A stretch of 64,000 bases of DNA from Candidatus Cloacimonadota bacterium (GCA_030600585.1 JAUVLU010000006.1:1-64000), one strand, 5' to 3'. Numbered from the stretch's first letter, positions 1-59,061 are shown. The notes: generated from the letters alone by a model not told the origin. Numbers and translations are program-made.

Positions 1-957
1 GTCAATTACAATCATATCAGAACTTGCACCGGCAAATTTTAAACTTTTATCAACTAATTCAAGATGGTCTGGTTCTGTGTCAAGAAGACCTAAATCAATA
101 ATTGCTCGGTATGATGTTTCTCCAATATTAGTTTGGTCAAATTCAAAACTTTCACCTTCCACATTTGTCCCAAACTCACCTATAGGAACAATTGGTTTTT
201 CAATTAATTCGATTATTTCAGAATACAGACTAAATACATCAGAGTGCATTTTTTTGAATTTTGTATTATTATAAACATCTGTTCCAAGAAATAATGTTTC
301 ACCTACTCTAAAATGATTAATTCCTTTTGGTAAAAGATTTTGAAAAATCAAAGGTATTGTTACGGAAGAACCACCTGAAACATATGGAATTTGCTTGTTA
401 AATTTTGCTTCAATTAACTGTTCATATAAACTTAACTGAATTAATTTATCGTGATTTGGCAAAACGCCATACAAACAAGATAAGTTCGCACCAATTCCTA
501 TAACTTTAATGTTTTCTAATTTAAAAATTTTTTCATAGAAATCTATGAAGTCTTCACCTAATACACCCTCTCGAAGTTCTCCTAACTCAATCATTATTAT
601 GATTTTGTGAGTTTTATTTTGCTTTTTGGCTTCTTTCGATAAAAGTTTAATAGTTTCAATTTGAGTGTTCATACTGATATCTGCATATTTTACAACACTT
701 GATATTGAGCGTTTTGCAGGTGGTTTAATATAGATTGTTTCAATTTTCGGATTAATTAATTTAATCTCTTTCAAGTTTGACACACGAGAGTCGCATATTT
801 GATTTATGTCAAATTTTAACAATTCCGTTAAATATTTTTTATTACCACTTAACATTTTTGACACAATAGACCATTCTATACTATTCTTTTTAAAAATAGT
901 ATTAAGATAATCAAAGTTTGATTTTAATTTTTTAATATCTAATGTTATAAAAGCCAT
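1..957 (-). CDS. alanine/ornithine racemase-family PLP enzyme, 3' end beyond window
   Basis: The ORF track misses this gene because it has no stop inside the window. Reading the minus strand from the ATG at 957 gives an open frame to base 1. It starts MAFITLDIKKLKSN and includes VSKMLSGNK, CDSRVSNLK and YIKPPAK. It is clearly a paralogue of the 367-residue protein at 49590-50693. The fold is the alanine/ornithine racemase family (COG3457-like PLP barrel); the lysine in VSKM is the expected PLP lysine. Substrate is not evident: ornithine, lysine or another amino acid are all possible. The ATG overlaps the stop of the upstream GNAT by one base (TAATG), so the two are probably translationally coupled. 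About 50 C-terminal residues should lie to the left of base 1. Confidence 0.8.
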   Translation of the reverse strand, partial: MAFITLDIKKLKSNFDYLNTIFKKNSIEWSIVSKMLSGNKKYLTELLKFDINQICDSRVSNLKEIKLINPKIETIYIKPPAKRSISSVVKYADISMNTQIETIKLLSKEAKKQNKTHKIIIMIELGELREGVLGEDFIDFYEKIFKLENIKVIGIGANLSCLYGVLPNHDKLIQLSLYEQLIEAKFNKQIPYVSGGSSVTIPLIFQNLLPKGINHFRVGETLFLGTDVYNNTKFKKMHSDVFSLYSEIIELIEKPIVPIGEFGTNVEGESFEFDQTNIGETSYRAIIDLGLLDTEPDHLELVDKSLKFAGASSDMIVID

Positions 958-1403
958 TATCTCTCCTTTTTATATCGCATTTCAATATATTTGCTGCTAA
1001 ATCCAACTTTTTCATATAAAAATCTTGCTGGATTATCGGGTTCTACGTGTAGTGCAATATCACCTTCTGTTAATTTTATTGTTTTTTTCATTAATTGTTT
1101 TCCAACACCTTTTCCCCTATGGTCTTTATGTGTTGCTATGTAAACCAATATATTTTCAGGAATATAGTCTTTCATTCCTGTTTGATTTATAACTACTGCA
1201 CCTATAATCTCTGTATTATTTTTTGCTATTAAAACAAAACCGCCAAAAGATGAATGTTCTCGTAAAGAAAAATCAATAGCTTTTTCAATATCTGCCTTTG
1301 GGTCACCGTACTCTTGCAAATTCTCAAATAAAAAATTAATAATCTCTTGCTTTTCTTCTAAACTCGGTTTGTTTGTAGCATTAAATACTTTCATTTCAAT
1401 CAT
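957..1403 (-). CDS. GNAT family N-acetyltransferase
   Basis: 148 residues with the GNAT acetyl-CoA loop HRGKGVGKQLM near residue 96 and a C-terminal FLYEKVGF motif, typical of Gcn5-related acetyltransferases; the acceptor substrate is unknown. It is about 60% identical by eye to the GNAT at 50693-51145 and has the same neighbour, a racemase-family enzyme, in the same order and with the same one-base TAATG overlap. The pair therefore behaves as a two-gene module present twice in the window. An AGGAA-type ribosome site precedes the ATG, and a TTGACA promoter-like element lies just upstream, overlapping the stop of the next gene. Confidence 0.8.
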   Translation of the reverse strand: MIEMKVFNATNKPSLEEKQEIINFLFENLQEYGDPKADIEKAIDFSLREHSSFGGFVLIAKNNTEIIGAVVINQTGMKDYIPENILVYIATHKDHRGKGVGKQLMKKTIKLTEGDIALHVEPDNPARFLYEKVGFSSKYIEMRYKKER

Positions 1404-1425
1404 AAAAATAATTTCCTCTTCCTTA

Positions 1426-1470
1426 ACATCATCGTAAATCCTAATTTGATTAATGATAACTTAAGTGTCA
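1426..1470 (-). promoter_or_regulatory. putative promoter of GNAT-racemase module
   Basis: The minus strand reads TTGACACTTAAGTTATC, then an AAATTA-like -10 eighteen bases after the -35, then GGATTTACGATG. The TGA stop of the 170-residue gene lies inside the -35 box. A closely similar 40-base segment precedes that upstream gene (1990-2035), so the promoter region appears duplicated. The stretch also contains TGATTAATGATAAC (plus strand), resembling the cassette boundary TGATTAATGACTGATAAC upstream of the paralogous module at 51178-51195. Confidence 0.4.
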
Positions 1471-1980
1471 ATCACAAAATACTGATCTCGGATTTTCTAT
1501 CTGTTCCTTTATTATCTTCATTACTTCTTCCGGATTTCTGGTTGAAAACACAAACTTTTTAAACCTGCCTTTCTTCAATGAGAGGACAATGCGTGATCCT
1601 CCAATAACATTGTACACTAATCTCCATTTTCCCTTAACTTGTGCCATGCGGATGCCCCAGCCTCCATATTTGAATGTTGAAACATCGTCTAAATAACAGA
1701 TCTCAATATTTTCCCAGAGAATTGAATGTTTAATAATTCCATAACCAACGGAGAAATATCTGGACGTCATCCTGATTGTAAGTATACTAAAATTAATCAT
1801 CACTCCCCAAAATAACAGAAACATAAACATATAAAACCAGTTTGGAGCAGGATTAGTTCCGATCGGTCCTACCAAAATCTGATAGAACAATAGAAAAAGA
1901 AAGATAGCTATAAAAACGATTAATATAACCACTGTCCATTTCGAGAATATTTTTTCTTCATAGAAATCTTTTGTTTGCAT
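1468..1980 (-). CDS. small membrane protein with PH-like C-terminal domain
   Basis: 170 residues. Two hydrophobic segments at about residues 15-37 and 45-66 suggest a two-helix membrane anchor. The remaining ~100 residues alternate short beta-like stretches (YGIIKHSILW, WGIRMAQVKGKWRLVY, SRIVLSLKKG) and end in an amphipathic helix, EVMKIIKEQI. This resembles bacterial PH-like domains found in small membrane proteins, but I cannot name a family. AGAGGT lies a suitable distance before the ATG. It has its own promoter-like TTGACA element at 2013-2035, similar to the one that follows it. Role unknown. Confidence 0.55.
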   Translation of the reverse strand: MQTKDFYEEKIFSKWTVVILIVFIAIFLFLLFYQILVGPIGTNPAPNWFYMFMFLLFWGVMINFSILTIRMTSRYFSVGYGIIKHSILWENIEICYLDDVSTFKYGGWGIRMAQVKGKWRLVYNVIGGSRIVLSLKKGRFKKFVFSTRNPEEVMKIIKEQIENPRSVFCD

Positions 1981-1989
1981 TTTCTACCT

Positions 1990-2035
1990 CTTTGTAAATC
2001 CAAGTTTGTTTAAAAGAAATTTAAGTGTCAACATA
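1990..2035 (-). promoter_or_regulatory. putative promoter, copy of the 1426-1470 element
   Basis: Minus strand TTGACACTTAAATTTC, then AAACTT at the -10 position, then GGATTTACAAAGAGG, which runs into the ribosome site of the 170-residue gene. Alignment with 1426-1470 conserves TTGACACTTAA and GGATTTAC with similar spacing. Confidence 0.4.
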
Positions 2036-2196
2036 GAAATTAGTTAAACCCTCTTTAATTCCCCCTTTCCGTCTTCGTCCCAATTTTTGGGACTACACCG
2101 CGACGAGTCGAAGGGGGATGCATTTTCTCTTCTTGCTTTTCTACGTTTCCCTTTTAGGAACAGAGTTCCGTATAAAAGGGAATTGCAAGGGATTCT

Positions 2197-2240
2197 ACAC
2201 ACCCCACGGCTAAAGCCGTACCCCTCTCAAGAGGGGATTT
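2197..2240 (+). repeat. dispersed double-hairpin repeat, copy 1
   Basis: Consists of ACACCCCAC, a small hairpin GGCTAAAGCC, a few bases, then a larger hairpin CCCCTCT-CA-AGAGGGG and ATTT. A second copy at 10042-10085 has compensatory changes in both stems (GGCT/AGCC to AGCT/AGCT; loop CA to GT). It ends against the stop of the phosphohexomutase gene. The rest of 1981-2196 contains another hairpin, GTCCCAA-TTT-TTGGGAC near 2089, and no gene. Confidence 0.6.
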
Positions 2241-3582
2241 AACTAACCAACTTCTCAATCGCATCCATGCAGATATTCTCAGATCTCTCAGCCGTTTCAC
2301 TTTCTACATAAACCCGGATGATCGGCTCAGTTCCGCTTTTACGAATATGTATCCAGAATTTATCTCCCAGAATTTTAATTCCATCGGTTGTATCTAATTG
2401 ATAGTCAGAAAATATTTCAGGAACTTTCTGCATTATCGAGTCGAGTTTTGAGGGATCGACTTTAATTTTATTTTTGGCAAAGTAGTATTTTGGAATCTGA
2501 TCGGCAAGCTCGGAAACAGTTTTTCCGCTTTCTGCCAGATACGCCAGAATTACCGCCATTCCGGCTGGAGCATCTCTTGTAAAATGGACTTCCGGGCAGA
2601 TAACTCCACCATTTCCTTCTCCGCCAACAGGACTATTTATCTCCATCATTTTTTTTCCAACATTAATTTCGCCAACTTTAGTTCGATGCACATTTACGCC
2701 AAAATATGCAGCAATATCTTCCGAAGCCATCGAAGATGAAAGATTTGTAACGACATCTCCTTTTACTTTGGATAGAATGAATTTCTCAGAAAGCAAAAGT
2801 GAGAATTCTTCACCGATGCAATTTCCGTTTTCATCAACTATTGCCAGTCTGTCCACATCGGGATCGGTAGCAAAACCAATGTCAGCTTTATGTTCCTTAA
2901 CTGCATTTTCTAATTGCTTCAAATTTTTATTCAGCGGTTCGGGAGTGTGCGCAAAAATTCCAGTTGGTTCACTATTCAGTTCGATAACTTCACAGCCGAG
3001 TTCTTTCAATAATCTTGGTGAGATCAAGCCACCAGCTCCATTTACGGAATCGATTACAACCTTGAAATTCTTTGCTTTGATCTTTTTAATATTCAAATAT
3101 GAAATATTCATGATTCTTGCAATATGACGCTCGGCAGCATTATTATCTTGAGTTAATTTCCCAATTTTATCCCAACCGATATAATCGACTTCATTTTGGA
3201 AAGACGAAACAAGTTTAGAAGCATTTTCAGGGAAGAGGAACATTCCGTTTTCTGCAACGAATTTCATAGCATTCCATTCGGCTGAATTGTGAGATGCGGT
3301 AATAGAAATTCCTCCGCAAGCATCGCTCTCTTCCACTGCCAACAAAACGGTTGGAGTGGATACAACGCCAATATCGATAACATCGCAGCCAACCGACATC
3401 AAACCGGCAGTAACCGCATTGAACATTGCCTGACCTGTAACGCGTGAGTCACGACCTACGATTATTTTTCCACGACCCGAAAATATACCAAAATGTGCAG
3501 CGTATTTCATTGCGATCTCAGGTGTTAGGCTTTCACCGTAAATTCCTCGTATTCCTGAGACGCTTATCATTAATTTACTCAT
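2239..3582 (-). CDS. glmM: phosphoglucosamine/phosphomannomutase-type phosphohexomutase
   Basis: Alpha-D-phosphohexomutase superfamily. The N-terminal SGIRG motif, the phosphoserine loop ITASHNSAEWNAMKF, the metal-binding loop DPDVDRLAIVDENG, the sugar loop GEGNGGVICPE and the C-terminal phosphate-binding KSGTEPIIRVYVE appear in the expected order. The SAEWNA variant after TASHN resembles archaeal-type phosphoglucosamine/phosphomannomutases more than standard bacterial GlmM, so the substrate call is inference. The likely role is glucosamine-1-phosphate supply for UDP-GlcNAc, or mannose-1-phosphate. The ORF track starts at 3618, but AAGGAG lies eight bases before the internal ATG at 3582, which gives the natural N-terminus MSKLMISVSGIRG and 447 residues. 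Confidence 0.85.
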   Translation of the reverse strand: MSKLMISVSGIRGIYGESLTPEIAMKYAAHFGIFSGRGKIIVGRDSRVTGQAMFNAVTAGLMSVGCDVIDIGVVSTPTVLLAVEESDACGGISITASHNSAEWNAMKFVAENGMFLFPENASKLVSSFQNEVDYIGWDKIGKLTQDNNAAERHIARIMNISYLNIKKIKAKNFKVVIDSVNGAGGLISPRLLKELGCEVIELNSEPTGIFAHTPEPLNKNLKQLENAVKEHKADIGFATDPDVDRLAIVDENGNCIGEEFSLLLSEKFILSKVKGDVVTNLSSSMASEDIAAYFGVNVHRTKVGEINVGKKMMEINSPVGGEGNGGVICPEVHFTRDAPAGMAVILAYLAESGKTVSELADQIPKYYFAKNKIKVDPSKLDSIMQKVPEIFSDYQLDTTDGIKILGDKFWIHIRKSGTEPIIRVYVESETAERSENICMDAIEKLVS

Positions 3583-46475: not shown

Positions 46476-47648
46476 CTAAATTATTTCAGGCAGCTTTGAT
46501 TTGAATAACTCAGATACCGGAACTAATTCAAAATCAAGTTTTTCAATCTCTATTATGAATTTCTTTAAAAAATCATATCTGTCTTGTGTTGCGCAATGTG
46601 TAATGACTAATATCTTATTTCGATTTTTAGCAAGATATTTTAATTGCCTGATTTTATTAGAAAGTGTTTTCTTATTAATTGACGGTGTATCCAGAAAAAG
46701 TTGATTTTCACAAGTTGGGATCAACATCTTTTTAGCAACATTATACGCTATAGAAGATTGAGATGTGCGGCTATCTACAAAATAAAGATCATGTTTCTTC
46801 AAAACTTGTAGAACGCTTTTCATTACAGATTCATCGGTTGTTGCGAATGAACCCATATGATTATTGGCGCCAACGCACAATGGGAACTGTTTAATATAAC
46901 TTTCCATTCTGCGCTTTATCTCTTTTTCGGTAAGATGTACATAAATTGCATTGGCTCCAGGATTATCGCGTGGATAGCTGATAGGTTCCATCGGGATGTG
47001 GATCATTGTCTCGTGACCTGTCTCAGCAGCTTTGTTCATCACGTGTTTGGAAAATTTTTGATCTGGAAGAATTGCAAAAGTAACATTACTGTTCAAGTTG
47101 CAGAAATCATCTAATAATTTGTTGTTCCGAATTCCAAAATCATCAACAACTATGGCAAGCTGGGTTTTAACTTTTGTTTCATTTTGAGATTTGTTATAGT
47201 ATAAAGTAACAAAATATTTCTGAGAATCGCGCGGATCTTCTATCTCCAGAATTTGTTTATTACCATTATATTTTTCTTTCCCTGCTAATATTTTGCCACC
47301 AATTAATTCTACCTGACCGGTAATGATAATGTTTGCATAATTGAGATCCATCTCCGAATTATCTATTCCAATAGAAATATAAATAGCATCTTCGCCAATA
47401 TGATTTTTATAATTTTCTTCAGTTACTCCCAATAATAATTTTGCATGGGCTATTGCATCAAGAACTGAAATATATTCTTGCTTTGGCTTAATGGATACCG
47501 TATTTTTTTTTTGTTGAGGATTTATTATCAAATTTGTGATTTTATCATAATTAAATAAAATTAAAAGTAATATAAAACCTATGAATAGAAGAAAATATAA
47601 ATAACTTTTATCTATTTTGTAGTGTTTAACGCTTTTTCTCTTTCCCAT
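46476..47648 (-). CDS. divergent polysaccharide deacetylase family protein
   Basis: 390 residues: a single N-terminal transmembrane helix (LYFLLFIGFILLLILFNY), a linker domain, and a C-terminal divergent polysaccharide deacetylase fold (DUF610-like) with LAIVVDDFG, THETMIHIPMEPI-type GHETMIHIPMEP, NNHMGSFATTDESVM and FVDSRTSQSSIA. The family sits in the NodB-like superfamily, but its metal site is altered and substrates are uncertain. A promoter-like TTGACT-17-TAGACA lies at 47668-47696. Confidence 0.85.
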   Translation of the reverse strand: MGKRKSVKHYKIDKSYLYFLLFIGFILLLILFNYDKITNLIINPQQKKNTVSIKPKQEYISVLDAIAHAKLLLGVTEENYKNHIGEDAIYISIGIDNSEMDLNYANIIITGQVELIGGKILAGKEKYNGNKQILEIEDPRDSQKYFVTLYYNKSQNETKVKTQLAIVVDDFGIRNNKLLDDFCNLNSNVTFAILPDQKFSKHVMNKAAETGHETMIHIPMEPISYPRDNPGANAIYVHLTEKEIKRRMESYIKQFPLCVGANNHMGSFATTDESVMKSVLQVLKKHDLYFVDSRTSQSSIAYNVAKKMLIPTCENQLFLDTPSINKKTLSNKIRQLKYLAKNRNKILVITHCATQDRYDFLKKFIIEIEKLDFELVPVSELFKSKLPEII

Positions 47649-47696: not shown

Positions 47697-47770
47697 GGAA
47701 ATAATTAATCATAGTTAAATATTATTTAATATGATTTAAGTAGAAATAAGAAAAGCTGTAAAAGTAAAAC

Positions 47771-47804
47771 AAATCCAGCTTGAAGAATTTCTCAAGCCTG
47801 ATTT
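47771..47804 (-). terminator. terminator-like hairpin after beta-helix T9SS gene
   Basis: Minus strand AATC-AG-GCTTGA, loop, TCAAGC-TG-GATT followed by TGTTTTACTTTT. One two-base internal mismatch in the stem. It follows the stop of the 47811 gene at the place where a cassette 3' attC would be expected, and no attC is found here. Confidence 0.6.
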
Positions 47805-47810
47805 ATTGAA

Positions 47811-49481
47811 TTATTTTAGCAGCAAACATTTCTTCACGGATTTTGACTTACCATTAATAGATAATTTATAGAAATATATTCCTGATGAAACAGGTTGGTT
47901 ATTGTCATTAGTGCCGTTCCAAGATATGGAGTAGCTGACTCCATCGGCAAAAAACGGCGAGGGACTCGCCGACTCCAAAATATCCAAAGTTTTTATTTTC
48001 TGACCTTTGATATTATAAATTTCAAGATTCACAAAATCGGAATTTTGTGTTACTGAAAAAGAGATTGTTGTAGAAGGATTAAACGGATTTGGATAATTAG
48101 TTAATTCACATTTTTCATTATTCATTATACATTCTTCATTTACATCCACTTGTGGTTCTCCGAATTGATTTTCATAAGCACCAATATCCGGCATACTACC
48201 AAAGGGAGTTGGTCGAGGATTTCCTTCAAAATCAAATTCAGGGCATATATATGTAATTTCTCCAATCATAATTTCATCTATCCCTGATCCAATGCAGGGA
48301 CTTGCGTCTTGAAGATGAACATCATTTAAAAATGTATCAACAAAAAGTGGCTCTGAATCGATACAATTTTCATAGTCACCATTGAAATAAGGAGCACCAT
48401 CACCTCCAAAAGCTTCCACTCCTCCCTGTACATCACAGTTGTAAAAATTTGGATTTGTTTCTTCCGTCCATAAATATATTTGACTTCCAACTGCAGCTAT
48501 GTTCCCCCAAATAATATTATTAATTAGTTGAACATTATCACCAGTAATTGACAAACCTCCACCGTAGATCGATTCATTATTGAAAATTGTATTATTCGCG
48601 ATTATTATTAATGTATCGGAACAACATTTAATTCCACCGCACATATATTCTACATTATTTCCAAATATTAAATTGTTTGTTACTATGGAGGAACCACCAT
48701 TAAGCAGAATTCCGCCAGTATCAATTCCACTATTATTTGAAATAATATTGTTACTGATTATAGGGGATGAGCCAAAAGCCCGAATACCAATTGCACCATA
48801 AGCCATATTATAGCTAATAATATTATTTCTTATGAGCGGTGAAGAGCATTGATATAAAGAGATTCCACATCCCCAGCCACCACCGGGTTCTTCACTAAAT
48901 GAGATATTATATGAGATGTCATTGAACTCAATAATTGGTGAAGAATAATGGGTACAATATATTCCAGCACCACCAGAGTTAGCAAAATTATAATAAAGGG
49001 TAGAATATGCAATTCGTACTTTACTAAAATATTTTAAGTAGAAAACCCCGCCCAGCCAATCTTCTGATTCTGGTCCAACAGCTTTAGCATATTCAAAATG
49101 ACAATAATTGAATTTTGATGAATCATTTGCAGCAGGAGTGTTATTGAAACGAATGCCGTGCCAACCAATATGAGAATAGGTATAATAACCAGTTGTATCA
49201 GCAACTGTAAATTTAATGCTGTCCTGCTCTGTGCCAATTGCCAGAATTTGCCCTTGAACATTGAATTTGTAATGTCCCTGAAATTCTACGATCACACCGG
49301 GATCAATTGTTAATGTTTCTGCATCAGGGACTGTTATTTCTCCTTCTATTAAATAAGGAGAACCGTTTATCAACCAGTTTCCTGAAACATTTCCAGCAGG
49401 AATTGTTGTTTGGGAGATAAGTAAAATCCAATTAACTAAAACAATAATTACGAATATTATCTTTTTCAAATTGACCTCCAT
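47811..49481 (-). CDS. parallel beta-helix exported protein with T9SS sorting domain
   Basis: The ORF track starts at 49532, but those first 17 codons are the attC-like site; real starts are the ATG at 49481 or, better spaced from GGAGG, the TTG at 49469 (MKKIIFVIIVLVNWILLISQ, a signal peptide). The mature protein has right-handed beta-helix repeats (GGAGIYCTHYSSPIIEFNDIS, SPIISNNIISNNSGIDTGGI) and a C-terminal DIGAYE motif, then the sorting domain NYPNPFNPSTTISFSV with an in-frame palindromic insert encoding LESASPSPFFADGVS. Its 5' end (TTAGCAGCAACATAAA) is almost identical to that of the LVIVD cassette at 53.5 kb. Function unknown. Confidence 0.8.
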   Translation of the reverse strand: MEVNLKKIIFVIIVLVNWILLISQTTIPAGNVSGNWLINGSPYLIEGEITVPDAETLTIDPGVIVEFQGHYKFNVQGQILAIGTEQDSIKFTVADTTGYYTYSHIGWHGIRFNNTPAANDSSKFNYCHFEYAKAVGPESEDWLGGVFYLKYFSKVRIAYSTLYYNFANSGGAGIYCTHYSSPIIEFNDISYNISFSEEPGGGWGCGISLYQCSSPLIRNNIISYNMAYGAIGIRAFGSSPIISNNIISNNSGIDTGGILLNGGSSIVTNNLIFGNNVEYMCGGIKCCSDTLIIIANNTIFNNESIYGGGLSITGDNVQLINNIIWGNIAAVGSQIYLWTEETNPNFYNCDVQGGVEAFGGDGAPYFNGDYENCIDSEPLFVDTFLNDVHLQDASPCIGSGIDEIMIGEITYICPEFDFEGNPRPTPFGSMPDIGAYENQFGEPQVDVNEECIMNNEKCELTNYPNPFNPSTTISFSVTQNSDFVNLEIYNIKGQKIKTLDILESASPSPFFADGVSYSISWNGTNDNNQPVSSGIYFYKLSINGKSKSVKKCLLLK

Positions 49482-49493
49482 CTTGTTTATGTT

Positions 49494-49623
49494 GCTGCTA
49501 ATGGATGGCTGCTGCCACGAGCCACCACCCATCTCAAAAAGAAATCACTAAATCGGCTGAATCGAAACGATTCAGACAAAAAAAACCAACTAACCCAGCT
49601 TGTGGATAGCCTTGTTATCAGCC
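49494..49623 (-). repeat. attC-like site 4 (end of racemase-GNAT cassette)
   Basis: Minus strand: R'' GGCTGATAAC, L'' GGCT-AT-CCAC, a variable part containing the palindrome CTGAATCG-TTT-CGATTCAG, L' GTGG-CAGC-AGCC, then R' A/TTAGCAGC. R'' pairs with the 5' TTATCAG of its own cassette. The racemase stop codon (49590-49592) lies inside the site. Confidence 0.65.
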
Positions 49624-50693
49624 GTTTTAACCTTTTTCTCAATATATTTAGAATTCATTAATCTTAAAATACCCATATAATCCATTTTAAATTCTAATGA
49701 ATCACCAACTTTATAATTATTTGGATTATTCTTTAAATCAATTACAATCATATCTGAGCTTGCTCCAACAAATTCGATATTTTTATCGGAAGGCCAAATA
49801 TGTTTTTCATCTACATCAAGTAAACCAAGATTGATGATTGCTCTATAAGATTTTTCTCCTATCTCATTAGTATTAAACTCAAAACCTTTACCTTCAACAT
49901 TTGTGCCCAACTCACCGGAAGGAATAATTGGTTTCTCGGTTAATTCAATTATTTCAGCATATAATTTAAAAATATCATATTCCATACCATCAATTAATTT
50001 GTTGTGGTAAAGGTCTGTCCCGAGAAACAGTGTTTCACCAACTCTAAAATGGTTTATCCCTTTTGGAAGAATATTTGATAAAAGCAAAGGAATTACTACA
50101 GAACTTCCTCCCGAAACAAATGTAATAATTTTATCAAACTTAGCTTCAATTAGCTGCTCATAAAGACTTAACTGAATTAGTTTATCGGCGTTTGGAAGGA
50201 CTCCATATAGACACGAAAAATTAGTGCCAATTCCTACAACTTCAATATTTTCTAATTTGAAAACCTTTTCGTAGAACTTAATAAATTCATCTCTCAAAAC
50301 ACCTTCTCTTAATTCTCCCATTTCAATCATTATGATAACTTTATGAATTTTATTCAGCTTCCTTGCTGCTTTAGATAATGCTTTTATTGTAGATATTTCC
50401 GTATTTACGCTTATGTCAGCAAGTTTTACAATATTAGAAATTTCTCCTTTTGAAGGTGGTTTTATATATATTGTTTCAACCTTATCATTGATAAGTTTTA
50501 TATTCTTTAGATTTGTTAATCTGGAGTCACAAATTTGTTTTATTCCAAGTTTCAATAACTCGGTTAAAAATAATTTATTTCCGCATAAAACTTTAGAAAC
50601 AACAGCCCATTGTATATTATTGATTTTGAATAAATTATCCAAAAATTTGTAATTGTGTTTTAATTTTTCTGTGTCCATTTCAATAAAAGCCAT
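49590..50693 (-). CDS. alanine/ornithine racemase-family PLP enzyme
   Basis: 367 residues. PLP-barrel start with the lysine in VVSKVLCGNK (~33), CDSRLTNLKNIK, YIKPPSKGEI, MIEMGELREGVL, GIGTNFSCLYG, FVSGGSSVVIPLL and HFRVGETLFLGTDLYHNK, all typical of COG3457-type alanine/ornithine racemases. Which amino acid is used is not clear. The final ~10 codons (ADNKAIHKLG) are encoded by the attC-like site, so the C-terminus was probably reshaped by cassette formation. The ATG overlaps the GNAT stop (TAATG). It is a paralogue of the gene at 1-957. Confidence 0.82.
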   Translation of the reverse strand: MAFIEMDTEKLKHNYKFLDNLFKINNIQWAVVSKVLCGNKLFLTELLKLGIKQICDSRLTNLKNIKLINDKVETIYIKPPSKGEISNIVKLADISVNTEISTIKALSKAARKLNKIHKVIIMIEMGELREGVLRDEFIKFYEKVFKLENIEVVGIGTNFSCLYGVLPNADKLIQLSLYEQLIEAKFDKIITFVSGGSSVVIPLLLSNILPKGINHFRVGETLFLGTDLYHNKLIDGMEYDIFKLYAEIIELTEKPIIPSGELGTNVEGKGFEFNTNEIGEKSYRAIINLGLLDVDEKHIWPSDKNIEFVGASSDMIVIDLKNNPNNYKVGDSLEFKMDYMGILRLMNSKYIEKKVKTADNKAIHKLG

Positions 50694-51145
50694 TATTTTT
50701 CTCCTCTAATATATCGCATTTCTAAATATTTATTTTTAAAACCCACTTTCTCATAAAGGAATTTCGCAGGATTATCAGATTCAACGTGAAGAGCAATATC
50801 ACCGTTTGTTAATTCAATTGATTTATTCATTAAGAATTTTCCAATTTTTTTACCTCGATGTTCGTTGTGAACTGCTATATATACAAGTATGTTTTCCGGA
50901 ATATATCCTTTCATACCAGTATGATTTATTATAACTGCTCCAATTATTTCATTTTCTATTTTTGTTGTGATTATTATCCCTCCCAAAGATACATTCTCTT
51001 TAAGTGCATAATCAATAGATTGGATAATATCTTCTGCTGAATCACCGAATTGTTCAAGATGCTTATAAAAGAATTTAACAATTTTGTTTTTTTCTTCATT
51101 TGATGGTTTACTATCAGGAGTGTAAATAGTTAAATTTCTTCCCAT
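50693..51145 (-). CDS. GNAT family N-acetyltransferase
   Basis: 150 residues from the ATG at 51145, which is preceded by AAAGGAG; the listed start at 51244 would translate the attC-like site (CSWRDDVARRRYQS) and is rejected. The acetyl-CoA loop HRGKKIGKFLM and the LYEKVGFKNKYLEMRY end are as in the GNAT at 957-1403. It forms a two-gene cassette with the racemase. Acetylation of an amino acid related to the racemase substrate is a reasonable guess, not shown. Confidence 0.8.
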   Translation of the reverse strand: MGRNLTIYTPDSKPSNEEKNKIVKFFYKHLEQFGDSAEDIIQSIDYALKENVSLGGIIITTKIENEIIGAVIINHTGMKGYIPENILVYIAVHNEHRGKKIGKFLMNKSIELTNGDIALHVESDNPAKFLYEKVGFKNKYLEMRYIRGEK

Positions 51146-51185
51146 TATATTTTCTCCTTTGTACATATTTTGTATTATGATTAAT

Positions 51186-51345
51186 GACTGATAACGGCGG
51201 CGTGCCACGTCATCTCGCCATGAGCATTGGATTTGTTTTTTCAAATCCTGATGCGATCAGTAAGATGATAAAAGATGAGCAAATATAAAGTCAAGGGTTG
51301 TAAACTTTTTTCTCAATCTGAATGTGGAGTGCTTTTGTTAGCAGC
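51186..51345 (-). repeat. attC-like site 3 (end of LVIVD cassette)
   Basis: Minus strand: R'' GCTGCTAAC (51337-51345) eight bases after the stop of the LVIVD gene, L'' GCACTCCAC, a long variable part with hairpin GGATTTG-N6-CAAATCC (51229-51248), L' GTGGCACGCCGCC, R' G/TTATCAGTC (51186-51195). R'' is the exact complement of the cassette's own 5' TTAGCAGC (53545-53552). The L boxes pair only through CCAC/GTGG. Confidence 0.6.
51266..51294 (-). promoter_or_regulatory. putative promoter inside attC-like site 3
   Basis: Minus strand TTGACT (51289-51294), 17 bases, TTATCA (51266-51271), reading into the GNAT-racemase cassette. Confidence 0.4.
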
Positions 51346-51352
51346 ATCTTTT

Positions 51353-53521
51353 TCATTTAAGCAGCAAACATTTCTTAACTGCTTTAGTTTTCCCATTAAC
51401 ATTCAACTTATAAAAATATATTCCTGAAGAAACAGGTTGGTTATTGTCATCAGTGCCGTTCCAGGATATGGAGTAGCTGACTCCGTCGGCAAAAAACGGC
51501 GAGGGATTCGCCGACTCCAAAATATCCAAAGTTTTTATTTTCTGACCTTTGATATTATAAATTTCAAGATTCACAAAATCGGAATTTTGTGTTACTGAAA
51601 AAGAGATTGTTGTGGTTGGGTTGAAAGGATTGGGGTGGTTAGTTAATTCAAAGTCTGGTTTAATCATTAAGTTTTCGTTACTTGATGTTATACTTTCTAG
51701 ATCTAAGATTGAAACACCATAATAATTATTTGCAGTTACTAAATATTCATCAAATACTGTAAAATCCATAGACGACATATTCCAAATATAAGTATTGATA
51801 AGTTCAGGATTAGCAGGAACGGTTACATCATAAGTTATAATCTCATTCCAACTTCTATCTTCTACGATCAATTTATCATCAATAATTATTGGTTTTGTTT
51901 TAAACTTAGAATCTGGGTGTGATGAAATATTTTGAAGAAATACCGGGTTTTCAGGATCCATTATATCTACAAGTTGTAATCCGTCATAACTACAGGCAAG
52001 GTACAAAATATTATAGTGTTTAGATAAAGAATATACGTATCTTTGTGAACTAAAATATGGCAAAATAACAGGATTCTCAAGATTAGAAACATCAATTATT
52101 GTAAGACCATCATTCCCATCAGCTATGTAAACCATATCGTATGCAACTTCTAAATCATATCCGTTACCTGGAGTATTGCATTCACCAACAATATGAGGAT
52201 TTGTATGATTACTTATATCAACAATATAAAGTCCTGCTGCAGAAGATACATAAATATGAGACTCTTTGTGTTTTAGAGCATAGTTAGAACATCCTAATTC
52301 GATATAACTGTACACTACCGGATGAATTGGATCATACAAACCCAAAACGTATAATCTCGAGTTTGTGATAGCATATCCATAATTACCAACAACAATAAAA
52401 TCTTCTATTTGTCCGCAAATTCCAAAATAATTAACAATATATGGCAAGCTTGGATAACTAAAATCAATGATTTGTAAGTAGGAATTATTATCTGCTACAT
52501 AACAGAATTCTTCCGATATCGCTACTGACGAAGCATAAAATGGCGTATCAACCGACCCAACACAATCAAGATTAAAGGGTTCACTTATATCATAAATTTC
52601 CAAACCAGTATATAAATCTATAATGTAAGCAAAATTATCAGAAATTATAGCATTATATGCACAGATTGGAGTTTTTAAAGCACCAATTAATTCCGGCTCA
52701 AAGATATTACTTATATCTAAAACTTGGAATCCACTCTGACCACAGGAGAGATAAGCTATATTTTGTGATATTTTTATTCCATTTATTGTTGTATATGGTA
52801 TTTCATAAGTCGAGATTAAATTAAAATTCGTAGGGTCGCTTATATCATAAATTACAAATTTGCCTGTAGTCGTTGATACATAAGCAAGAGACTCAACAAT
52901 TACAATATCTTTAACCCAGTCAGGTGGATTATAGTATTCATATACTAATGAAGGTGCTGTAGGATTACTAACATTAACAACTTGGATACTTCCCATGAAA
53001 TTAGAAATATATATTAGTGTATCAGAAAGAGCAATTTTGCTAGCACTAATCATATCGAAACTTCCTAATAATTCTGGATTATGAGGATCGCTAACATCAA
53101 TGATTTGTAATCCTGATTGTCGATCTGCGATATATACAATAGAGTCAGAAACCACTAAAGATAATGCACAATCCGGTGTGTCAATGCTACCTAATATTTG
53201 AGGTGATTGTGGATTGCTTACATCTAAAATCAGAAGCCCATCGGTTGTATTTGCAACATAAGCGATATCACCATTTACTTCGATTTCTCGGCAAGTATCT
53301 AAAATCTCTAAACAACCAATATGTATAGGATTATTCTGTTCGCTTACGTCTATTATGTGTATCCCTGCATCATCTGGAACTAAAATTGTAGAATCAATTA
53401 GTTCCAAATCCATTGCCCAGAATGGTTCACCACTATGACCAATTTTGTGATAAATCGCTTCCAATGAGATACATAACAAAAGAATGAATATTATACAGAG
53501 TATACATTTTGATTTATACAT
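51353..53521 (-). CDS. LVIVD-repeat exported protein with T9SS sorting domain
   Basis: 722 residues. Signal peptide KCILCIIFILLLCISLEA, then about a dozen LVIVD-type repeats of ~45 residues (LLILDVSNPQSPQILGSI, LQIIDVSDPHNPELLGSF, LTIIDVSNLENPVILPYF), which form beta-propellers in surface proteins. The C-terminal sorting domain NHPNPFNPTTTISFSV is almost identical in DNA to that of the 47811 gene and has the same in-frame palindromic insert. AGATGGAGGTAAG provides the ribosome site within the conserved cassette 5' end. Probably a secreted or surface-anchored binding protein. Confidence 0.85.
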   Translation of the reverse strand: MYKSKCILCIIFILLLCISLEAIYHKIGHSGEPFWAMDLELIDSTILVPDDAGIHIIDVSEQNNPIHIGCLEILDTCREIEVNGDIAYVANTTDGLLILDVSNPQSPQILGSIDTPDCALSLVVSDSIVYIADRQSGLQIIDVSDPHNPELLGSFDMISASKIALSDTLIYISNFMGSIQVVNVSNPTAPSLVYEYYNPPDWVKDIVIVESLAYVSTTTGKFVIYDISDPTNFNLISTYEIPYTTINGIKISQNIAYLSCGQSGFQVLDISNIFEPELIGALKTPICAYNAIISDNFAYIIDLYTGLEIYDISEPFNLDCVGSVDTPFYASSVAISEEFCYVADNNSYLQIIDFSYPSLPYIVNYFGICGQIEDFIVVGNYGYAITNSRLYVLGLYDPIHPVVYSYIELGCSNYALKHKESHIYVSSAAGLYIVDISNHTNPHIVGECNTPGNGYDLEVAYDMVYIADGNDGLTIIDVSNLENPVILPYFSSQRYVYSLSKHYNILYLACSYDGLQLVDIMDPENPVFLQNISSHPDSKFKTKPIIIDDKLIVEDRSWNEIITYDVTVPANPELINTYIWNMSSMDFTVFDEYLVTANNYYGVSILDLESITSSNENLMIKPDFELTNHPNPFNPTTTISFSVTQNSDFVNLEIYNIKGQKIKTLDILESANPSPFFADGVSYSISWNGTDDNNQPVSSGIYFYKLNVNGKTKAVKKCLLLK

Positions 53522-53544
53522 CTTACCTCCATCTTATTTATGTT

Positions 53545-53637
53545 GCTGCTAATGTTTTGCGGCTGCCACGCTTGCCCGCCTCTGGTGGGTTATTCTTGCT
53601 TCTCTTCTTGCTCACTGTGGAGCAGCCTGTTAGGGGC
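53545..53637 (-). repeat. attC-like site 2 (end of restriction cassette)
   Basis: Minus strand: R'' GCCCCTAAC, one base, L'' GGCTG-CT-CCAC, variable part, L' GTGG-CAGCC, GCAAAAC, R' A/TTAGCAGC. L''/L' form a nine-base-pair stem with a two-base bulge on the L'' side, as in canonical attC sites. R'' is the exact complement of the cassette's own 5' end TTAGGGGC (57299-57306). 93 bases in all, the most canonical of the four. Confidence 0.75.
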
Positions 53638-53654
53638 ATTTTCTTCACCTCTTT

Positions 53655-54224
53655 TTAGAAAATACCCAAATCTTTTCGCATTTGCTTCTCTAATTCATTA
53701 CGAGTATCAATTAATTTTTGTCCAATCAACTTGATTTTAGAGTTTTCATCAATATTGATATTCTGGAATTCAAACATATTTATTGTAGCTAACACATCTG
53801 GGATTAATTTTATCTGTGAATAAGCAAGTTTTTTATATTCATTAAGAATGGATAATGTTTTGCTCGAAGCGATAAATCTTAGTTGTTGAAGTTCCTCGTT
53901 AGCTTGATTAATAGTTTTCATTGATTTAGTTTGGATATTACTTAGTTCTTTTTGCATATTAATAATAGAATGATTTGAATTCTCAGGATCTGTCATAATG
54001 CTTTCAAACACTTTATTAATAGTTGGACCAAGATATTTTTCAAAATCAATCATTAATCGTTCATTGATGTTATCAATCTTTCTAAAATACTCATTATAAA
54101 TTTTAAGTCTATTCTCAAAAACGACTGAAGATTTTTTATATTTATTTATGATAATCGTTTTCCAAATTGCAATTACCCAACCAATTAAAGCAACAACAAT
54201 CGGTATAATGATTTTAAGTTCCAT
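53655..54224 (-). CDS. membrane-anchored coiled-coil protein next to restriction enzyme
   Basis: 189 residues. One N-terminal transmembrane helix (IIIPIVVALIGWVIAIWKTI) precedes a mostly alpha-helical, charged cytoplasmic region with coiled-coil character (NYKKSSVVFENRLKIYNEYF, LSNIQTKSMKTINQANEEL). No family was recognised. It starts three bases after the stop of the restriction-methyltransferase gene inside the same cassette, so a functional link such as a defence accessory is plausible but unproven. Confidence 0.65.
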   Translation of the reverse strand: MELKIIIPIVVALIGWVIAIWKTIIINKYKKSSVVFENRLKIYNEYFRKIDNINERLMIDFEKYLGPTINKVFESIMTDPENSNHSIINMQKELSNIQTKSMKTINQANEELQQLRFIASSKTLSILNEYKKLAYSQIKLIPDVLATINMFEFQNINIDENSKIKLIGQKLIDTRNELEKQMRKDLGIF

Positions 54225-54227
54225 ATA

Positions 54228-57200
54228 TTAATTTTTCCCTTCAACAATCTCGATTTCCTCTTCAGTTAAACCATAAAGCTCATAAACTATCTGATCGATT
54301 TCTTTGTCGGTTTTTTTAATTTGCTTTTGCAATACATTAATTTCATCTTTGTAACTATTAAAATATTCTTCAAATTCATCTTGTTGAGAAAATGAGAGTT
54401 TAATCTTTTTCTTCTTCAATTCAGAGACCAAAATTTTGAAATCGTAATTGTAGAATGCTTTTATTTTATTACTAAAATTTTCAATCTCAAAATTAGTTTC
54501 AAGACGATGTAGAAATTTATGAATTAAATCTTGTTGTTGTTTGTTTAAGGAAAGCATTAAATCTGCTTTTTCGATGAAGGGTTGTTGAAGTTCAATTTTG
54601 ATTTCTTTAAATGGAAATAATCGAAGGTCTTTTAAAATAATTTTAGGAAACATTTTACGAACAGATTTTGCCGTATTCTTTATAAAATAGTAAGATATTA
54701 AAGAACTATTCAAAATAACTAATACATATTTTAAAGAAATGTCTTTTTCTTCTTTTTCAATAATTGCAATATTACTTCTGTTGTATAAATAAATGTCTTC
54801 ATTATATGTTGAAATAATACTTCTTGGATATTTCCCTGTAATTTCTCTAATAATTATTTTCTCTCCATTGAATAAATTAAATGTTCTCGGAGCTGCTAAA
54901 TGAATACCATATTTTAAATATAAACCTGACCACGAAAGAAAATACCTACTAACATCTTTGCCTTCTAAATATTTAAACGTGTTTTCATTAAATTTGAAAG
55001 TAAAATCATATGGACGCTTTTTTACATCTTCTGCAGATTGCCTCGGTGTACCTTTCCCTTTTTCATATGCTTGTAAACCAGCTTTTATTTGAACAATAGA
55101 ATCAAGAATAACAGAATTTAACTCTATCTTTTTTGTTAATAATAAGCTAATATTATCAGAAAATACTTTAAATTCATAACCATCATTTTTGGAAAAATCT
55201 AATTGATTCCTTTTGTGAGAAAATACAAACTCTTTGTCTTTACTTAAAAAAATATCAAACTTATTTATATTTGCTTTTTTCTTTTGTGCAAGAATAATTA
55301 TTGTTTCAACATTTACGCCTTCAAACGAATAACCTTCTAAATTGATTATCTGATTAAGTTTACAATTATTGAGAATATACTCTCTTAATTCTTTGCCAGA
55401 ATAAACCATCAACCAAGCATTCGGAACAATTAAACCAAAAATCCCTTTCTCTTTTAATATCTCAATAGATTTCTCCATAAATAGCAGATAAGTATTTACT
55501 TGGTAGATTGCAGAATTGTAAGATTTTGTATAATAATATTTCTCATTCTCAGTTATGTTTTCTCGTGCAAAAACATAAGGTGGGTTTCCAATCACAACAT
55601 CAAAACCACCATTTTGCATAATTTCTGGAAATTCTTTATTCCAGTCAAAAGCTTTTTCTCCTGCAATTTCAGGATCATCAATTAAGGAATTACCACATTT
55701 AATATGTTCGCTCAAATCAGTTAATTTTCTTCCTTTCTTTGCAGTTTTAAGCCAAAGTGAAAGTTTGGCAATTTCAACTGATTCTTCGTTAATATCAACA
55801 CCATAAAGATTGTTTTCCAAAACCGCTGTATCAATATCAAAAAGAGATAGCTGCCCTTTTCGCAAATCCGTTTCAAGATCAATTATAAAATTGTGCTCAT
55901 CAATTAAAAAGTTTAAAGCTTGATTTAGAAATGCTCCGCTTCCGCAAGCAGGATCGAGAATTTTTAGAGAGAGAAGCCACTCTTTATATTTTTCAAGTTT
56001 ATCGAAAAGCTGTTCGCCTTTTTTTGAAATTGATTTTCTGGTTTTCTTAAAATAGGTTTCATCAATTTCAAGGTTATTTAATTTTAGTTCACTTTTCTTT
56101 TCATTACAAAGTGTACCGACTGTGTTTTCAACAATATGTTTTGTAATGTAATTCGGTGTATAAAAAACACCTTCTTTTTTTCTTCTTGTTTGTTTTTTGT
56201 CTAAACCTTCTCCGCTGATCTCTGCATTTAATTTTTCAATATCTGTTAAACTATGCTCAAAAATGTGTCCCAAAATATTAACATCAATTTCGGAATCAAA
56301 ATCATAATTTGAAAGTTTGAGAGAATCAATAATTAATATTTCATCATCAATTTCTACATTATCTAAAATCTCATCGAATTGGAATAAACCACCATTGTAA
56401 GCATCAATAGAAAGTTTTTCGTAACCCTTATTTATGTAATCAAAATATTTTGTGAAAATTTTGTAGAGTGGGGTGTAAACGTCCAAATCTTTTAGCTTTT
56501 TGTAATCATCAATAATTTTTGAAATTATGTTTGGCGGAATCAATCCTTTATCTTCGGCGAAGAAAATAAACAGAAAGCGGTCTAATAATTTTTGAGATTT
56601 TTTGAATAAGAGTAACTTATTAATTTGGGGATTATTTTTTGTTAAGTTTTGGAAAATGTTATTTCTGAAAATCGAATAATCATTATAAAGCTTTTTAGAA
56701 ATTTGATCTTCGTGCTGGTTGGACTTTTCTTTTATTATTGATGGTACATCTTCGAAAATACTATCTTTACTGAAACAAAGATAAAGATATTTGAATTCAT
56801 CTTTGGAAAGTTGGAATACATTAAATTCTTCAAATTCAGTTGCATCATTAATGTATAATCTGATCTTTTCAAAATTAGAAGTTATTACATATTTGCAATT
56901 TGATTGATGAGCTTTGTAATTAAAAGCCTGTTTTTCAATTGTTTTTAGATCTTTCGTTTTCGTTGATTTTAATTCGATAACTGCAATTGGATTTTCTTTT
57001 CTCAGAATTGCTCCGTCAGCTTTTTCTGCATCGGTTTTATTTTTGAATTCAGTTGTTAGATTAAAATTTTCGTTTGGATTTATTGTGTAATTTAAGCAAT
57101 CAACAAATAATTCTCGTAAAAATCCTTCTTGATATTGTTCTTCTTTAAGAGCTCTGATTCTTTCAGCTCTCCCCAAATCATTAAAATACTTTGTATATTT

Positions 57201-57278
57201 TTTGTAATTATCTTCTATCAAATCAGAAGGTAAATTCTTCAGATATTTTTTAACTATTACTTTTTGGAATAATGACAA
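54228..57278 (-). CDS. type IIG-like restriction enzyme with N6-adenine methyltransferase
   Basis: 1016 residues. The N-terminus has a PD-(D/E)XK-type nuclease core, ADGAILRKENPIAVIELKST (~85-105). The central methyltransferase shows motif I LDPACGSGAFLNQ (~439) and the catalytic NPPY in DVVIGNPPYVFA (~561), and the C-terminal third (VQIKAGLQAYEKG, YLEGKDVSRYF, PKIILKDLRLFPF) is a target-recognition domain. This is the Eco57I-like single-chain restriction-modification layout. The start is a TTG at 57278 with AGGAGG six bases before it, 20 bases inside the cassette 5' end. BREX PglX is an alternative, but no other BREX gene is present. Confidence 0.88.
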   Translation of the reverse strand: MSLFQKVIVKKYLKNLPSDLIEDNYKKYTKYFNDLGRAERIRALKEEQYQEGFLRELFVDCLNYTINPNENFNLTTEFKNKTDAEKADGAILRKENPIAVIELKSTKTKDLKTIEKQAFNYKAHQSNCKYVITSNFEKIRLYINDATEFEEFNVFQLSKDEFKYLYLCFSKDSIFEDVPSIIKEKSNQHEDQISKKLYNDYSIFRNNIFQNLTKNNPQINKLLLFKKSQKLLDRFLFIFFAEDKGLIPPNIISKIIDDYKKLKDLDVYTPLYKIFTKYFDYINKGYEKLSIDAYNGGLFQFDEILDNVEIDDEILIIDSLKLSNYDFDSEIDVNILGHIFEHSLTDIEKLNAEISGEGLDKKQTRRKKEGVFYTPNYITKHIVENTVGTLCNEKKSELKLNNLEIDETYFKKTRKSISKKGEQLFDKLEKYKEWLLSLKILDPACGSGAFLNQALNFLIDEHNFIIDLETDLRKGQLSLFDIDTAVLENNLYGVDINEESVEIAKLSLWLKTAKKGRKLTDLSEHIKCGNSLIDDPEIAGEKAFDWNKEFPEIMQNGGFDVVIGNPPYVFARENITENEKYYYTKSYNSAIYQVNTYLLFMEKSIEILKEKGIFGLIVPNAWLMVYSGKELREYILNNCKLNQIINLEGYSFEGVNVETIIILAQKKKANINKFDIFLSKDKEFVFSHKRNQLDFSKNDGYEFKVFSDNISLLLTKKIELNSVILDSIVQIKAGLQAYEKGKGTPRQSAEDVKKRPYDFTFKFNENTFKYLEGKDVSRYFLSWSGLYLKYGIHLAAPRTFNLFNGEKIIIREITGKYPRSIISTYNEDIYLYNRSNIAIIEKEEKDISLKYVLVILNSSLISYYFIKNTAKSVRKMFPKIILKDLRLFPFKEIKIELQQPFIEKADLMLSLNKQQQDLIHKFLHRLETNFEIENFSNKIKAFYNYDFKILVSELKKKKIKLSFSQQDEFEEYFNSYKDEINVLQKQIKKTDKEIDQIVYELYGLTEEEIEIVEGKN

Positions 57279-57298
57279 TTATTTCCTCCTGTTCTGTT

Positions 57299-57439
57299 GC
57301 CCCTAATGAGCACACTGCGAAATTGTCCCGAAAACTTTCGGGACACTCAGACAAACCACCTAAGTTTGAATCCGGCAGCTGCCGGATTCAGACGAGACAA
57401 ACTACGAGACTGAACCGCACGGCACTTTTGTTATGTGCC
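57299..57439 (-). repeat. attC-like site 1 (end of TIR cassette)
   Basis: Minus strand: R'' GGCACATAAC directly after the TIR stop, AAA, L'' AGTGC-CG-TGCG, a variable part made of two palindromes (24 bases centred on GGCAGCTGCC at 57367-57390 and GTCCCGAAA-AC-TTTCGGGAC-type at 57324-57345), L' CGCA-GT-GTGCT, CA, R' A/TTAGGGGC. The expected matching 5' box (TTATGTGCC) was not found upstream of the TIR gene. Confidence 0.65.
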
Positions 57440-57440
57440 A

Positions 57441-58391
57441 TCATTTAGTCCTTAACTTCCTTTTCAATTCAGGGCTTATTGATGTTACAATTCTACCGTT
57501 TCCACTAAGTTTTATGTTTTTTATATATGTTTGGCTCTCTAAAAAATCAAGAATATGTTTTATAAGATAACTATTTAAATTGGTCTCTTCTTCAATTGTA
57601 GAATTTGAAATTTGACCTTTATAATTAACAATAAAAAAAGCAACTTTGTTTATTGAATCATCATAGCTCTTTAGAAAATGTTTCGCATAACGTTTAAATC
57701 CAATTGTTGTTAAGGTTATGTGTGCTATTTGACCACCTGCTCTTAAACTTTTAAAGAAATATCGATTATCTAGTATTTCAATACTTTCATTAAAAACTTC
57801 TTCAGAAATGTCGTATTTTTTATTAACAATTTCATAAATTTTACTTATATTAAAATCACCAAATCCATTTTTCATTGCTTTTTCACAAATTTCTTTTAAA
57901 ATAATTGTATCTTCTTTTGTAAAACTTGGAATTGTAGAAATAGCTGTTGAAGCATAATTTGGGATACTACCCAACTTTGGTTTAGAATATAGACCAAAAA
58001 TGGAACTTATAATTACTTCTAATTCTGTTTCATAATTATTTAACTCCTTAATATTTTGCCATACAGTTGATTTTAAAGATTCAGGTATTTCACAATCGTC
58101 AATAATAACAGGAATCAGCTTAGTATTTTTTTCAATTTTTTTTATAAATCCTGCATTCAATTCTTCTTTTACCCATTTTTTTGACACACTATTTTTTGAA
58201 AGTATAATTATCATTGCATCTGCATTTTTTATCCCTTCTTCAAAAATTTTGTCTATCAAACTATCACCTGGCAACATTTCCCACTTATCAAGCCAGGCAT
58301 CAATACCATTGTTTCTTAATTTCGTTGCAAAATCTAACACAAATCTTTTCTTATCTTCACTTGCGTGACTGATAAAAACTTTTGGATTCAT
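57441..58391 (-). CDS. TIR-domain protein with C-terminal winged-helix-like region
   Basis: 316 residues. The TIR domain (1-~135) begins PKVFISHASEDKKRFV and has WLDKWEMLPGDSL, whose glutamate is the expected NADase catalytic residue, and MIIILSKNSVSKKWVKEEL. Residues ~165-316 are helical with winged-helix-like pieces (YFFKSLRAGGQIAHITLTTIGFKRY; SNSTIEEETNLNSYLIKHIL), which might sense or bind nucleic acid. Stand-alone TIR proteins often act in anti-phage abortive responses; that role is inferred here from its place beside a restriction enzyme cassette. AAGGAA precedes the ATG; promoter at 58509-58538. Confidence 0.85.
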   Translation of the reverse strand: MNPKVFISHASEDKKRFVLDFATKLRNNGIDAWLDKWEMLPGDSLIDKIFEEGIKNADAMIIILSKNSVSKKWVKEELNAGFIKKIEKNTKLIPVIIDDCEIPESLKSTVWQNIKELNNYETELEVIISSIFGLYSKPKLGSIPNYASTAISTIPSFTKEDTIILKEICEKAMKNGFGDFNISKIYEIVNKKYDISEEVFNESIEILDNRYFFKSLRAGGQIAHITLTTIGFKRYAKHFLKSYDDSINKVAFFIVNYKGQISNSTIEEETNLNSYLIKHILDFLESQTYIKNIKLSGNGRIVTSISPELKRKLRTK

Positions 58392-58985
58392 AAATAAATT
58401 CCTTTTTTTGTTATTTTTGAACGTTTATGTCTAAAAATCTTTTGTATAAATCTCAAGTTTTCTCTCCTAAATTCCAACTGTTTCAAATTAATTATTAAAA
58501 TCAAAACCGAATTTGTAAATATTATTATTAAGTGTCAATTAGAAAATGTTTTTCAGTTAAGAAGTTTAGTTATTTAGTGGTTAATAAGAGAAAATAGATA
58601 TGAAAAATCTGAGATTCTTCGTTAGAAAGGTAAACAGAATTTCTCAGAAAGACAGATTTTTTTCATTCTCAAATCATAAATCGTATATCGAAAATCTCAA
58701 ATCAATTCTTTCTGCTAGTTTAAGGGGAAGGGTTGGGGATGGGGTTCAGAAAGACAGAATTTTTCATTCTCAAATCGTATATCGTTAATCGAAAAATCGT
58801 AAATCTCAAATCATTTCTTCCACCGGCATCTTATGTTCCCTCTCTTGTTTTTTAAGAGAGGGATAGCAGGGTGAGTTCAGCGTTCCCAATATCCTGAATG
58901 CTTTCGGGAAAACGAGGAAAAATGATTGTGATGTTAAGATATAAAATAAAAAAGCTGTCCGATCAATCGAACAGCTAAAAATATA
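58392..58985. repeat. gene-free region with TIR promoter and an imperfect direct repeat
   Basis: Minus-strand TTGACA (58533-58538) with AAATTC 18 bases on is a likely TIR promoter. Two ~70-base direct repeats follow (58645-58712 and 58747-58821), both starting CAGAAAGACAGA and containing CATTCTCAAATC, CGTATATCG and AATCTCAAATCA, separated by a G-rich segment. A hairpin CCCTCTCTT-N6-AAGAGAGGG lies near 58848-58864 and a degenerate GCGTTCCC...GGGAAAACG hairpin near 58880-58916. The 62-codon ORF here reads through the repeats and is rejected. Confidence 0.6.
58953..58976 (-). terminator. intrinsic terminator of the Pro-Val-Val tRNA operon
   Basis: Minus strand AGCTGTTCGAT-TG-ATCGGACAGCT followed by TTTTTTA, nine bases after the tRNA-Val CCA end. 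The one-base stem difference forms a T-G pair. Confidence 0.85.
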
Positions 58986-59061
58986 TGGTGGGCGCGGAGG
59001 GACTTGAACCCCCGACCACCTGCTTGTAAGGCAGGCGCTCTCCCAACTGAGCTACACGCCC
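58986..59061 (-). tRNA. tRNA-Val(UAC), copy 2
   Basis: Minus strand GGGCGTGTAGCTCAGTTGGG, anticodon loop TTACAAG flanked by CCTGC/GCAGG (anticodon TAC), T-arm GGTTCAAGTCC, CCA encoded. Identical to the copy at 59231-59306. Confidence 0.95.

Follow-up and report, generated by a model that had tools for sequence, protein, structure and literature searches.

Five cassettes inserted downstream of tRNA-Val

The window, a DNA stretch of 64,000 nucleotides (GCA_030600585.1, JAUVLU010000006.1:1-64000), is part of contig C44 of a 2.58-Mb genome that is 97% complete. Its minus strand encodes, in order of transcription, a 316-aa TIR protein (57441-58391), a 1016-aa type IIG restriction-methyltransferase (54228-57278), and a 189-aa orphan open reading frame (53655-54224), and all three genes lie where the earlier note had placed them. 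They belong to an array of five cassettes, all on one strand (-) and about 11 kb in total, which is located between tRNA-Val (58986-59061) and a deacetylase gene (46476-47648). In five sister genomes (G094, G095, G096, G097, and G099) these two flanking genes are adjacent, with an insert-free spacing of ~100-150 bp, from which the approximate borders of the whole insertion (47730-58930) were derived; the array is therefore a recent, species-specific insertion downstream of tRNA-Val. Contigs of the same-genus genome G094 are identical to those of Candidatus Tenebribacter burtonii (L053 = L086), and the organism of the window is thus assigned to Candidatus Tenebribacter, phylum Cloacimonadota, a genus described from Antarctic Ace Lake (PMC8542988). 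The literature searched yielded no published work on integrons of Cloacimonadota or Tenebribacter, nor on their defence genes.

Cassette borders and attC sites

Integron cassettes were recognised by attC sites of the arrangement R''-L''...L'-R' with paired, compensating L arms, and by a TTRRRY-like start whose complement forms the end, before AAC. The covariance model used for the attC sites was built without any window sequence from 15 sites of Ca. T. burtonii, G099, Cloacimonas sp. SDB, G115, and G116, and it contains compensatory changes in seven of its eight pairs. Complementary ends of 7-8 bases are present in four cassettes of the array. The type IIG cassette (53553-57306, minus strand, 3754 bp) starts with TTAGGGGC at 57306-57299, ends with GCCCCTAAC at 53637-53629, and is closed by an attC site (53543-53639, minus strand) that scores 51.5 bits with an E value of 7.3e-9; the same pair of ends recurs in two Ca. 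T. burtonii cassettes (L163 and L053). Position 53553 is a cassette junction, as the adjoining cassette begins at 53552 with TTAGCAGC.

The remaining three of these four cassettes, likewise on the minus strand, follow downstream. The first encodes a secreted LVIVD beta-propeller protein (51330-53552, lower border approximate; Pfam LVIVD, 183 bits; ends TTAGCAGC/GCTGCTAAC), and the second a GNAT acetyltransferase together with an alanine-racemase-like protein (49612-51196, borders approximate; ends TTATCAG/CTGATAAC), where the same covariance model gives weak matches at both sides (51175-51347 and 49492-49624). The last one, a beta-helix protein with a sorting domain (47800-49503, borders approximate; start TTAGCAGC, end GCTGCTAA), has lost its attC. 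The R' core retains TTA, while its first base is mostly A (ATTA, compared with the classical GTTRRRY); GTTA occurs at R' in the cassette with the GNAT and racemase genes, and also ahead of the TIR gene of L042. Single-strand folding of the attC sites gave no added support for the short site.

The situation is less clear-cut for the TIR gene. The spacer between it and the enzyme (57297-57440, minus strand) matches the model with a non-significant 9.4 bits and resembles a degenerate attC-type site of the long two-hairpin type, with GGCACATAAC as R'' and an L' that is unpaired with L''. Its halves are 85-88% identical to attC-like repeats on contigs C15 and C87 of the same genome, which suggests that the site is probably chimeric, each half resembling a different site. 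On its right side the spacer is delimited by the conserved start of the enzyme cassette, whereas a complementary start for the TIR cassette, whose gene ends with GGCACATAAC, was not found in the comparison of cassette ends. As this left edge was not found, the TIR gene probably, though not provably, makes up a full cassette; the two adjacent integron-type cassettes claimed in the earlier note are supported.

In the genome as a whole, 38 attC matches were listed, 37 of them at E<0.02 and on many contigs, and no match to the integron integrase profile TIGR02249 exceeded the cut-off; with 37 attC sites and no integrase, the genome carries what is termed CALIN (at least two attC sites with no integrase nearby). 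Among 125 Cloacimonadota genomes, strong attC matches occur in 46 and an integrase over the cut-off in seven, namely six genomes and G099, whose integrase is broken. This G099 gene (L162:52-1053) is split over three frames and heads an attC array. Across the 46 genomes the attC family has an R' core of mostly ATTA rather than GTTR.

The best 30 attC matches of the window's genome (L173-L202) adjoin cassettes with Fic (2), RhuM, caspase-domain, and Pycsar TM effector genes, with SacI-like, type III restriction, and SEC-C genes, and with secreted proteins that carry FlgD/Por sorting domains. On contig C87 (L023:3855-5860), an AbiEi/AbiEii-type toxin-antitoxin pair follows a TPR-cyclase-like gene and is flanked on both sides by attC-like elements. 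Judged by family, many of the cassettes examined in this genome appear to hold defence-type genes.

A type IIG enzyme whose recognition region differs between cassettes

The 1016-aa protein matches Pfam Eco57I (169 bits), Pfam TaqI_C (69 bits), and the PADLOC model REase_MTase_IIG (779 bits); its gene starts with TTG, preceded by AGGAGG. In the alignment, the nuclease motif D88...E102-x-K104, the DPACGSG motif (442-448), and the NPPY motif (565-568) are all intact, and the target recognition region spans approximately residues 571-915. The protein is accordingly classed by its sequence as an intact single-chain type IIG enzyme with nuclease, adenine methylase, and recognition region, for which activity is predicted, and the single-chain restriction-methyltransferase named in the earlier note is borne out. 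An identity as BREX PglX was rejected (132 bits against a cut-off of 500), and BREX genes are absent from the array.

Enzyme relatives are common in Bacteroidota. Compared with the window protein, relatives on cassettes with the same ends (L041 = L163, L042, and L053) are 83-90% identical over residues 1-570, 27-31% over residues 571-915, and 66-75% over the rest, and the corresponding values for other members of the phylum are 61-87%, 22-33%, and 31-77%. Such a pattern is as expected if target recognition were exchanged between cassettes. In Ca. Parabeggiatoa sp. HSG14 (L090 and L092), two to three type IIG gene copies stand in tandem, 32-59 bp apart, with recognition regions that are perhaps different.

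The 189-aa orphan and the variable slot behind the enzyme

The 189-aa protein, encoded 3 nt behind the enzyme gene and within its cassette, belongs to no recognised family, as had been suspected. Profile searches yielded no assignment, with TolQ and terminase matches below significance, and no relative was found in the 125 genomes of the phylum, among 84,980 species genomes scanned for close relatives, in IMG/VR, or in PLSDB. Candidate homologues in other Cloacimonadota were rejected as weak matches, two of which proved on inspection to be DUF47/PhoU-like helical proteins, the others being short or low-scoring. As no second occurrence was found, the supposed co-occurrence of this protein with Eco57I-like enzymes is unsupported; the converse, a wide distribution without any restriction enzyme, was not seen either. 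Hydropathy analysis predicts one N-terminal transmembrane segment (residues 3-21) followed by an all-helical remainder, in agreement with the membrane character claimed earlier, while the coiled coil that was claimed along with it is only suggested by a heptad bias and a low-confidence structure model (pLDDT 55).

Among relatives of the enzyme with enough sequence, a close same-strand gene lies downstream of the enzyme at 49 of 71 loci and upstream at 11 of 65. The 45 proteins drawn from the downstream slot fall into 37 unrelated groups, including RhuM (3), AAA/OLD (4), GmrSD (2), SIR2 (2), Abi_2, Fic, KAP, and HEPN; the slot is thus generally variable, and its occupants are often of abortive-infection families. 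The enzyme cassette itself was encountered in three states, alone (L163), with the 189-aa gene (window only), and with a DUF1883-TIR gene that in Cloacimonas sp. SDB (L042/L076) stands ahead of the enzyme within one cassette. Because the orthologous Ca. T. burtonii cassette with the same ends (L163) holds the enzyme alone, the 189-aa partner is dispensable for the cassette.

We considered three roles for the protein, of which a membrane-anchored accessory or fail-safe that is dispensable for restriction would be the most likely. Alternatively, the reading frame could be a chance passenger or non-functional, a remnant from the fusion of two cassettes after attC loss, as hinted by the lack of relatives in any collection searched and by the sister cassette with identical ends that does without it; we consider this unlikely, since the frame of 189 codons is intact, its product has a clear amphipathic and transmembrane character, and it begins 3 nt after the stop codon of the enzyme gene, as suits an occupant of the family's variable slot. 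The same spacing, the shared cassette, and the predicted N-terminal helix would also suit a protein that regulates or anchors the enzyme, for instance by membrane retention, instead of acting as an effector. This is an improbable role, however, as all enzyme relatives seen lack the protein and the enzyme family has no conserved partner of such a kind.

The TIR protein

The TIR protein consists of a TIR domain (residues 1-124; Pfam TIR_2, 102 bits) and two winged-helix domains (159-316), the latter also visible in the AF2 model, which has a pLDDT of about 85-90 in the region 160-230. Bacterial TIR domains, including AbTIR and TcpB, are its closest solved structures in a PDB search, and Foldseek matched the model to AbTIR, ThsB, F-93, and MarR-type proteins. 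The catalytic motif reads W73-V-K-E-E77, with E77 aligned to the residue that we take to be the catalytic glutamate of AbTIR; the intact glutamate claimed earlier is therefore present, although within a WxxxE motif and not the WxxxWE that had been given for it. By sequence the protein has a TIR fold with catalytic Glu, and NADase activity is predicted. A Thoeris system was rejected, as no ThsA is encoded among the genes on either side, and a bSEFIR assignment was likewise discarded because TIR_2 outscores SEFIR (102 against 35 bits), though the PADLOC bSEFIR model reaches 89 bits.

Full-length relatives of the protein occur on an IMG/VR contig (L203, IMGVR_UViG_3300040744_000079, 596-3394; 52% identity) and on a plasmid of Rhodoferax antarcticus (43%), where no annotated restriction system adjoins; more distant plasmid relatives stand mostly alone or beside other TIR or caspase genes. 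Two further TIR loci were noted. In one, a DUF1883-TIR gene is followed after 43 bp by a gene for an OLD/AAA-like ATPase (L167, G106:C84), and in the other, the gene of a 546-aa protein with a C-terminal TIR domain shares 23 bp with the end of an HsdS-like gene (L171, G089:C366).

That the TIR protein and the type IIG enzyme form one system, with TIR as a back-up killer that responds to failed restriction or to a build-up of cut DNA, seems very doubtful to us, because the two stand on separate cassettes in the window, the plasmid TIR relatives examined lack an adjacent annotated restriction system, and no TIR was seen in the enzyme flanks (up to 8 kb) at other genome-contig loci, which also led us to reject a general TIR-type IIG partnership. 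Two loci speak for such a system: on L203 the TIR-winged-helix gene is followed after 39 bp by genes for a C5 methylase and an Eco29kI restriction endonuclease, and in Cloacimonas sp. SDB the DUF1883-TIR gene, which has a different accessory domain, precedes a 66%-identical enzyme by 17 bp in one cassette.

Two putative anti-phage modules on an integrase-less array

Taken together, we favour, at a probability of roughly 0.7, an integrase-less CALIN array downstream of tRNA-Val that carries two separate anti-phage modules, the TIR protein and the type IIG enzyme with its accessory, which most likely provide NAD-depleting suicide and restriction independently and were brought in as cassettes. 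Their activities are predicted from family membership. In the first module, a stand-alone TIR protein, the winged-helix half would presumably sense a DNA- or protein-borne infection signal, upon which the TIR half would destroy NAD and thereby cause abortive infection. In the second, the single-chain enzyme would methylate adenine at its own site in the host DNA and cut unmethylated invading DNA, with its target recognition part presumably swapped between cassettes. We also entertain, as an unlikely speculation, that integrons carry the type IIG cassette as an immune unit of modular build, in which a conserved catalytic part would be combined with exchangeable target recognition and an exchangeable fail-safe slot; its effector, an orphan membrane protein or a TIR protein where there is one, would kill the cell once an invader has got past restriction.

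As far as the sequences tell, each part of the locus is of a known kind, apart from the 189-aa companion gene, which had no relative in the collections searched. The view that integrons store genes for defence against phages is hereby extended to a candidate phylum, with attC sites in 46 of 125 Cloacimonadota genomes, and a 3-kb restriction enzyme appears to move as one cassette while swapping its target recognition. The slot behind the enzyme family may be a place to seek new abortive-infection effectors.

Comparison with known systems

Type I hsd operons carry accessory genes such as RhuM, RloA/B, and PrrC, and share with the window a variable gene, often of abortive-infection type, beside the restriction enzyme; in the window, however, the enzyme is a single-gene type IIG and the slot lies directly downstream. 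With AbTIR (8g83/7uxu), ThsB, and the SPARTA TIR, the window protein has in common the TIR fold and the aligned glutamate of the WxxxE motif, but it differs in its tandem winged-helix C-terminus, and neither ThsA, Argonaute, nor a cyclase is encoded beside its gene. The type IIG enzyme combines in one chain an N-terminal PD-(D/E)xK nuclease, a gamma N6-adenine methylase, and C-terminal target recognition, as do type IIG enzymes of the Eco57I/MmeI type (PADLOC PDLC03609), whereas it is carried on integron cassettes with shared ends and is followed by a variable slot, filled in the window by an orphan membrane protein.

According to Darracq et al. (2025), as cited in PMC13064858, sedentary chromosomal integrons serve as biobanks of defence; they likewise reportedly hold defence genes as single attC cassettes in the chromosome. 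Compared with the integrons of that account, the present genome belongs to Cloacimonadota, is devoid of an integrase, and has its sites dispersed over ~25 contigs, while its attC sites are lineage-wide with R' mostly ATTA and one of its cassettes accommodates a full 3-kb restriction enzyme.
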